From the NCBI GenBank assembly GCA_021730225.1, contig CP072532.1, forward strand, positions 966,564-1,030,563: DNA of 64,000 nucleotides. Reading direction: 5' to 3'. The DNA is from Candidatus Vesicomyidisocius sp. Agig_15_S12 (GTDB lineage: Bacteria; Pseudomonadota; Gammaproteobacteria; PS1; Pseudothioglobaceae). The notes under the pieces were generated by a model, which saw nothing but the letters and a program-made list of their open reading frames with translations, did not search any database and was not told where the DNA came from. The translations under genes and the position numbers were made by a program. Positions 63,324-64,000 of the stretch are shown piece by piece (position 1 is the stretch's first letter; every line of letters begins with the position of its first letter).

Positions 63324-63848
63324 TTACTTAGAAATCATTTGATCGCGACTATCGGCAGTTGCATTAGCTTTAGCATCTGCATACCCCTTAGCATATGCAT
63401 CAACCTGTGCTTTAGCATATGCATCAGCTTGTCCTTTAGCATATGCATCAACTTGTCCTTTAACCTTAGCATTAGTAATACCTTCATATTTTCCATCAAC
63501 ACTTACATTAGAAACATTTTTAGTTCTATTCTTGTTGTTATAATGAAAACCCCAATCAGAATCATTGTCCATGTTATTATTATTAGAAAAAGGACCCCAA
63601 TTATTAGCGCCGTTAAAAGGGCCCCAATTAGAACCCCCATCAAATGGTCCCCAATTATTAGCACCATTCAAAGGGCCTATATTTGAACCAGTATTCATTG
63701 GACCCCAATTAGAACCCCCATCAAATGGTCCCCAATTATTTGAACCATTACCATAACCGTAGCCATTATTATTTGAACCATTGTTAAAGAAACCAGCTGA
63801 TGCTGATGTAGTAGCTACTAAAGTAGCAATAGCAATTATCTTTTTCAT
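63324..63848 (-). CDS. Secreted Asn/Gly/Trp-rich repeat protein, possible sulfur-globule protein
   Basis: Protein of 174 residues from ATG 63848, which has a perfect GGAG; an upstream extension to 63908 lacks a ribosome site. Signal peptide of 18 residues with A-S-A before Gly19. After an Asn/Gly/Tyr-rich start come six 9-residue repeats whose NWGP or NIGP cores fall exactly at residues 38, 47, 56, 65, 74 and 83. A linker rich in Asn follows, then four 8-residue repeats from residue 132 of the type QVDAYAKG. It has no Cys after the signal. Gly/Asn/Tyr-rich exported proteins coat periplasmic sulfur globules in sulfur oxidizers such as Allochromatium, which is the likeliest role here, but this is inference from composition and lifestyle. 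The promoter is excellent, so it should be abundant. Confidence 0.8.
   Translation of the reverse strand: MKKIIAIATLVATTSASAGFFNNGSNNNGYGYGNGSNNWGPFDGGSNWGPMNTGSNIGPLNGANNWGPFDGGSNWGPFNGANNWGPFSNNNNMDNDSDWGFHYNNKNRTKNVSNVSVDGKYEGITNAKVKGQVDAYAKGQADAYAKAQVDAYAKGYADAKANATADSRDQMISK
63360..63455 (-). repeat. Four 24 bp tandem repeats encoding an 8-residue motif
   Basis: Codes for residues 132-163: QVDAYAKG, QADAYAKA, QVDAYAKG and YADAKANA. DNA of the first three units is nearly identical (repeated GCATATGCATC on the plus strand). Confidence 0.85.
63576..63737 (-). repeat. Six 27 bp tandem repeats encoding a 9-residue motif
   Basis: Codes for residues 38-91 with pattern N-(W/I)-G-P-(F/M/L)-(D/N/S)-x-x-x. 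Units alternate DGGS and NGAN endings, which suggests an older 18-residue double unit. Confidence 0.9.
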
Positions 63849-63873
63849 ATTAATCTCCAAATTTAAAAGTATT

Positions 63874-63897
63874 AACCCTCTTATTATTAAGAGGGTT
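63874..63897 (-). promoter_or_regulatory. 5' leader hairpin of the repeat protein gene
   Basis: Perfect 9 bp stem AACCCTCTT / AAGAGGGTT with loop of six, lying between promoter and ribosome site. No T run follows in the gene's direction, so it may protect the message or regulate it rather than terminate. Confidence 0.55.
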
Positions 63898-63930
63898 TTA
63901 AGTATCAAACTTCATAGTCTTGATAAAAAT

Positions 63931-63958
63931 ATTATACGATAAATATATTATAAGTCAA
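63931..63958 (-). promoter_or_regulatory. Near-consensus promoter of the repeat protein gene
   Basis: On the minus strand: -35 TTGACT (63953-63958), 16 bp spacer, -10 TATAAT (63931-63936). It is one of the two best sigma70 matches I see in the window; the other is at the sqr genes. Leader of about 76 nt. Confidence 0.75.
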
Positions 63959-64000
63959 TAATATTCTAATATATTTTTTAGAATACGACTAGAAAAACTA

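Follow-up and report, generated by a model that had tools for sequence, protein, structure and literature searches.

Most of what is known about sulfur-globule coats comes from purple sulfur bacteria. At the end of the window (the whole stretch of 64,000 nucleotides analysed here) a gene on the minus strand encodes a small repetitive protein, which a sequence-only reading had put forward as a candidate sulfur-globule coat protein. The question raised by this locus is what such a protein does in a bacterium of the Thioglobaceae, and whether it is related to the coat proteins already described.

The gene and its product

The gene begins with ATG at 63848 and ends with a stop codon at 63324-63326 on the minus strand, with tsf as its convergent neighbour. 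Five parts could be recognised in the protein, namely a signal peptide, a short stretch rich in Asn, Gly and Tyr, an array of nonapeptides (nonads), an acidic core and a module of Ala-rich octads (C-module). The main features are listed below.

63324 to 63848, minus strand: coding sequence of an exported repeat protein of 174 aa (Thioglobaceae sgp-like type A), from the open reading frame and its orthologs
63795 to 63848, minus strand: Sec-type signal peptide MKKIIAIATLVATTSASA, residues 1-18, identified in the sequence by eye, cleavage expected before GFF
63579 to 63737, minus strand: array of six nonapeptide units, N(W/I)GP(F/M/L), repeating at exactly 9 residues, residues 38-90, from the sequence
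63522 to 63578, minus strand: conserved acidic core linker NNMDNDSDWGFHYNNKNRT, residues 91-109, from the sequence and profile comparison
63354 to 63473, minus strand: Ala-rich octad module with X-[Ala/Gly] alternation, residues 126-165, from the sequence

The signal peptide claimed earlier is present and showed, by eye, clear n, h and c regions and a site between SASA and G. Six exactly phased NWGP nonapeptides had been described; there are six, with Pro at residues 41, 50, 59, 68, 77 and 86 (spacing exactly 9), five of them reading NWGP and one NIGP. Of the four DAYAKx octapeptides counted before, three are exact (DAYAKG, DAYAKA and DAYAKG) and lie between degenerate octads, while the fourth (ADAKANA) is itself degenerate. 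In the window copy the X-[Ala/Gly] alternation is partly eroded by Val. In the C-module of relatives Ala or Gly occupies every other position for up to 28 steps, far above shuffled sequences, because small residues fill the four even positions of the octad. The mature protein of about 155 aa contains 19% Asn, 15% Gly and 14% Trp, Tyr and Phe together, and is small, repetitive and rich in Gly, Asn and aromatic residues, as sulfur-globule coat proteins are.

AlphaFold2, run with a 37-sequence alignment whose first row had one extra upstream codon and lacked the last residue, gave a mean pLDDT of 40.6 and a pTM of 0.16, and its sole helix lay in the C-module at very low confidence. The Ala/Tyr/Lys array is present as described earlier, with its helical form unproven; so strict an alternation, with a period of two residues, would be just as compatible with an extended strand of the silk type. 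Searches of Pfam and NCBIfam with the window protein returned no family, in line with the earlier remark that no named family was recognised. Three features had escaped the earlier reading, namely the acidic core, the alternation in the C-module of relatives, and the inverted repeat that spans the -35 box.

Paralogs, selection and gene conversion

A paralog with 82% protein identity was located near icd at C1:568955-569479, 460 kb away from the window gene. At least four paralog types (A to D) could be distinguished, with the signal peptide, nonad-like repeats and core in common. Type A is the window gene and type B comprises the tandem neighbours at the icd locus, type C carries the signature PWMPWDN...GYARADGKYA...FPAP, and type D the signature ...SNWNPM...PSNWLQETDF...SPAAS. 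The number of paralogs per cell ranges from two to seven, and they belong to several types. Genome G030, which we take to be perhaps isolate EF1 (Ca. Thioglobus autotrophicus), carries four copies in tandem (L073) and one A and one D copy at a second locus (L074), which adjoins DUF1302, LolA-like and MMPL exporter genes. Past the edge of the window, an eroded type-D relative follows the window gene (L071:2772-3179, corresponding to C1:1030771-1031178); in free-living relatives the type-D gene is intact.

Purifying selection was found both at the window locus, with dN/dS of 0.24-0.39 (0.24 against the nearest ortholog), and at the second locus, with 0.05-0.07 among copies. The window gene is not a chance reading frame, because it has an 82% identical paralog, orthologs in most of the family and purifying selection. 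Within single genomes the two distant copies share 98.9% (G002), 99.8% (G009) and 95.5% (G030) identity, and the copies of G002 and G009, assigned to their loci from map position, diverge by about 12% between these genomes. This combination suggests ongoing gene conversion between the two distant copies in all three genomes. In the genus branch of the window genome the copies group by locus, which suggests that conversion has stopped there.

Distribution of the family and dsrA

The family was found in 50 of the 83 Thioglobaceae genomes. Compared with true dsrA, 47 genomes had both, 30 had neither, 3 had dsrA only (G025, G046 and G054) and 3 had the family only (G051, G059 and G117), the six discordant genomes all being drafts; in this count G016, with dsrA in split pieces, was scored as having the gene, and G015, with a scrap of 35 residues, as lacking it. 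The window genome has dsrA. The group with neither consists mostly of one dsr-less genus of 29 genomes, which is also without the family, so the co-occurrence partly reflects clade structure and stands for few evolutionary events, not for 83 independent ones. With this caveat, the dsrA table places the family in bacteria capable of storing and reusing sulfur, as judged by reverse Dsr. A distribution of homologues chiefly among organisms without sulfur storage had been named earlier as a result that would speak against a coat protein; the gene instead follows dsrA within Thioglobaceae.

In a class-wide profile search of 369 genomes, only weak or spurious matches were obtained outside Thioglobaceae, with the exception of the bridge proteins treated below. 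Membership of the family is limited to Thioglobaceae (SUP05 and the symbionts of bivalves), with members in clam and mussel symbionts and equally commonly in free-living SUP05 relatives. The first class-wide matches, unrelated long proteins (L108-L118), were matched mostly in the Ala-rich module and were set aside as an effect of composition.

Relationship to PF17228 sulfur-globule proteins

PF17228 is the family that we take to be the likely Pfam home of the SgpA/B/C-type coat proteins. The window protein gave no match to PF17228 at E values up to 10 and did not reach the gathering cut-off, and the model had 0 matches in the 83 Thioglobaceae genomes, where control genomes were silent too. Two bridge proteins of family f103 (L106 and L107) were matched by the Thioglobaceae family profile with E values of 1e-5 and 2e-4. 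They have a signal peptide, a WN/GPFGG stretch, the core NTDVEWDLNVDTK and a Tyr/Pro/Gly tail. The bridge profile in turn matched further loci, most of them in other families, and 4 of the 5 tested matches outside f103 exceeded the PF17228 cut-off. Genomes with bridge-profile matches carried dsrA in 7 of 9 cases, against 117 of all 369 (p 0.0055). Next to the f103 bridge gene on L107 another exported Pro/Tyr/Gly repeat protein is encoded (L107:2289-3179), possibly a second globule protein.

Profiles were also compared by hhalign on mature sequences, after removal of the signal peptides and with 30 column-scrambled controls per comparison. The scores were 33.1 for the family and the bridge proteins (scrambled maximum 19.4), 77.4 for the bridge and PF17228-type proteins (16.6) and 27.5 for the family and PF17228-type proteins directly (16.4). 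The aligned columns include the acidic core, and the profile-level relationship to PF17228 is that of this short core only: NNMDNDSDWGFHYNNKNRT is the counterpart of NDTDFGLKF in the rest of the family and of GDTDFNMSF in PF17228 proteins. The homology lies in a short core reached via intermediates, within low-complexity sequence. Since it fails the PF17228 model, the window protein is, on profile evidence, to be regarded as a divergent relative and not as a filed Pfam member.

Both groups are small proteins with a putative Sec-type export signal, rich in Gly, Asn, Tyr and Trp, and found in dsrA-bearing genomes. Besides the similar acidic core, some PF17228 members have W(G)PF close to the N terminus of the mature protein, and the PF17228 type also has X-[Gly/Ala] alternation, with runs exceeding those of shuffled sequences, and the same upstream palindrome. 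The Thioglobaceae family differs in that the single WGPF is amplified to 6-9 phased nonads, Ala octads replace the Tyr/Pro/Gly tail, and its members are restricted to Thioglobaceae and escape the PF17228 model.

Promoter and leader

The following elements were located upstream of the window gene.

63953 to 63958, minus strand: -35 box TTGACT, from the sequence, kept across the family
63931 to 63936, minus strand: -10 box TATAAT, from the sequence, invariant in 21 leaders
63943 to 63971, no strand: operator-like inverted repeat over the -35 box, from the sequence and family comparison
63903 to 63925, minus strand: leader hairpin H1, 7-bp stem, near the expected 5' end of the transcript, from folding
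63874 to 63897, minus strand: leader hairpin H2, perfect 10-bp stem, from folding
63855 to 63858, minus strand: Shine-Dalgarno sequence GGAG, from the sequence

The promoter (boxes 16 nt apart) and the GGAG are as described before, and the leader hairpin reported earlier proved to be two. Such a promoter would be expected to drive strong expression. The window leader folds with an MFE z of -3.6 relative to shuffles, and single leaders were more stable than shuffles (z below -1.5) in 17 of 21. The H2 stem is preserved in relatives with altered sequence. RNAalifold gave no consensus structure on the leader alignment because the hairpins misalign, and Rfam gave no significant match. Among the leaders of the window (63874-63925), L014, L016, L017, L018, L042 and L073, pairing is kept while stem sequences differ between genera. 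Free-living members have an extra inverted repeat around the ribosome site (TAATCT-AGG-AGATTA).

A palindrome common to sgp-type genes

Type-A promoters carry an inverted repeat across the -35 box. A 24-bp palindrome, CTATATTA-N8-TAATATAG, precedes genes of types A, C and D as well as phage-borne copies. PF17228-type genes of unrelated families have it too, at a distance of about 120-135 nt upstream, with 0 mismatches at L125, 1 at L126 and 2 each at L127 and L132 (L125, L126 and L132 belong to one genus). Its positions include L125:1374, L126:2144, L127:259, L132:2123, L092:790 and L094:7817, besides other loci. The window copy at 63943-63966 has 3 mismatches and lies in a longer dyad, TATTAGAA..TTATAATA; about 2.6 chance occurrences at this level are expected in the window, and this copy would not stand alone.

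The non-redundant loci, 723 kb in all, contain 36 sites with no more than 2 mismatches, 31 of them near starts of sgp-type genes, whose neighbourhoods cover 5.25% of the scanned bases; the loci had been collected around sgp-type genes, and related sites are not independent. The 31 sites belong to phage copies (7), type D (7), types A/B (7), type C (6) and the PF17228 type (4). Twelve composition-matched control palindromes had 0-4 sites each and 0 near sgp-type genes. Among the 5 remaining sites, two precede type-A genes that are truncated at the end of a contig, and one precedes a porin-like gene of a phage. The bridge genes are without the palindrome, and it was not found at the dsr operon in three dsr regions, where the sole strong match was a 1-mismatch site at the carB-greA junction of the window genome. 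The palindrome may be an operator bound by a common regulator that sets sgp expression. ArsR-type repressors responsive to sulfane sulfur control sulfur oxidation elsewhere (PMC10451225); nothing in this analysis connects such a repressor to CTATATTA-N8-TAATATAG.

Phage-borne copies

Short sgp-like genes were revealed on about 11 viral contigs, ten of them together with an eleventh recognised through its leader motif. They encode proteins of about 108-137 aa with one to four nonads, the core and one or two octads.

L083:5004-5366; L086:8004-8381; L088-L090:8001-8414; L091:5682-6038: viral sgp-like genes
L092:896-1258; L093:2168-2533; L094:7920-8246; L095:7914-8246; end of L134: viral sgp-like genes, continued

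Their neighbours encode PhoH, a T4-type major head protein, a tail tube protein and a ClpP-like protease, and the contigs are therefore phages. On most of them a porin-like gene (beta-barrel-like product of 275-293 aa) lies beside the sgp-like gene. Four sgp-bearing contigs, three of which are near-identical, have dsrA above the cut-off and DsrC-family genes, and L091 has, in this order, sgp-like, porin-like, dsrA, tusA, iscU/nifU, ferredoxin and iscA-like genes. The association of sgp and dsr on phages is not independent of the host, because SUP05 phages often carry dsr genes. An ammonium-transporter-like gene, assigned by eye, was noticed near the sgp-like gene on a T4-like phage contig (L093:2628-3788). 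Viral leaders upstream of the sgp gene (L092, L089, L095 and L134) share a hairpin-like motif, GAGGAAA(A/G)GATCGACCTC, which among viral contigs occurred only on sgp-bearing phage contigs and in two unrelated chance matches. GenBank phages (INPHARED) gave no match to a viral copy.

The accessible portions of two SUP05 phage surveys list dsrA, dsrC, TusA, NifU and IscA, and a term search of that text gave no mention of a globule protein gene (PMC8190135, PMC4164917). The phage type and the dsrA/TusA/NifU/IscA cassette agree with those found here, while the viral sgp-like gene, unlike the sulfur genes in those portions, would act on storage rather than on oxidation.

Function of the family

Very probably the product of the window gene is a structural protein that coats periplasmic sulfur globules, as a divergent, repeat-expanded cousin of PF17228 that seemingly replaces it in Thioglobaceae. 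The earlier coat proposal is supported, with the qualification that the protein is divergent and lies outside the PF17228 model. Three fairly independent lines speak for it, which are the tracking of dsrA, the core homology and the common palindrome. The phage-borne copies, one of them beside dsrA, tusA, iscU and iscA, and the globules and putative Sgps reported for a SUP05 isolate (PMC6509183) count in its favour as well. The carB-greA palindrome, the bridge genes without one, the weak window palindrome and the failure of PF17228 count against it. Sulfur-oxidizing symbionts of Bathymodiolus are without large inclusions, and S0 was not found in mussel gills (PMC4612132), yet these symbionts carry the family; small or transient globules, which is a guess, would reconcile the two. 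Clam symbionts contain electron-transparent vesicles that may store sulfur (PMC4892456).

We infer the following course of events. The signal peptide would direct the protein through Sec to the periplasm, where many copies may assemble as a low-complexity layer around S0, itself the product of truncated Sox, Sqr or Fcc. The N(W)GPF nonads, which are rich in turns, could form a flexible aromatic skin which adsorbs to hydrophobic sulfur and stretches as the globule grows, while the X-[Ala/Gly] module may pack copies together. The acidic core is, on the profile comparison, the ancestral element common to both groups. A regulator acting at the observed CTATATTA-N8-TAATATAG element would set expression, and the stored sulfur would later be oxidized by reverse Dsr.

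An exported, repetitive and abundant protein in clam and mussel symbionts could also belong to the cell surface, as an outer coat or in contact with the clam bacteriocyte, and the beta-barrel-like protein of about 290 aa next to the short phage copy has a weak homolog in the window genome. This reading is unlikely, given that the family is just as common in free-living relatives, including G030, tracks dsrA, and has its core and palindrome in common with PF17228 sulfur-globule proteins; moreover, the S-layer candidate of the clade is a separate 34-kDa protein (PMC6509183). That SUP05 S-layer protein (about 34 kDa, hexagonal surface lattice) was itself rejected as an identity by size, the window protein having 174 aa including the signal peptide. 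The regulon-like palindrome, the exporter-rich neighbourhood in G030 (DUF1302, LolA-like, MMPL) and the mussel symbionts with the gene but no visible globules would suit a periplasmic matrix or scaffold that serves under sulfur stress or keeps the envelope intact, and that shares its regulation with sulfur metabolism without binding to globules. This is very unlikely, as the relationship seen in the sequence points to globule coat proteins, and sgpD of Allochromatium vinosum also adjoins an exporter gene although its product is globule-bound (PMC10386293).

Decay of a non-functional copy in a reduced genome would account for the Val residues in the octads, the degenerate window palindrome, the eroded type-D neighbour and a dN/dS higher at the window locus than at the second one. 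With an open frame, exact nonad phase, intact promoter, leader hairpins and ribosome site, and dN/dS well below 1, it is the least credible explanation, and the coat protein is retained as the preferred one.

SgpD was located to globules by an mCherry fusion, and it resembles the present family, by description, in being repetitive and, as predicted for the family, exported, with predicted loops and helices, its own promoter and an adjoining exporter gene; it differs in being almost exclusive to Chromatiaceae in that study (PMC10386293). For a free-living SUP05 isolate, the available text of Shah et al. (2019) reports periplasmic sulfur globules, four proposed sgp genes and three Sgps detected by proteomics (PMC6509183). 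These genes are probably the family described here, so the sulfur-globule proposal is likely not the first. The EF1 genes are from the same clade and number four, where G030 has four in tandem and two elsewhere, and that portion of text describes neither palindrome nor phage copies (PMC6509183). The short phage-borne copies (about 11 viral contigs, four with dsrA) and the shared palindrome are apparently unreported.

It is possible, though we propose it tentatively, that infecting SUP05 phages co-express the coat gene under a host-type operator, remodel or loosen the globules and feed S0 to phage-boosted Dsr, and that the operator marks an sgp regulon spanning distant families of sulfur-oxidizing Gammaproteobacteria. 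With the coat protein as the very probable function, the marine SUP05 and chemosymbiont group would gain a defined family of coat proteins, set apart by its design of two arrays, and the failure of the Pfam model to detect coat proteins in this group would be explained. The DNA element ties sgp genes together across distant families and may allow a direct search for the regulator of globule formation, and the phage coat genes suggest that viruses target the sulfur store of the host, beyond its oxidation enzymes.
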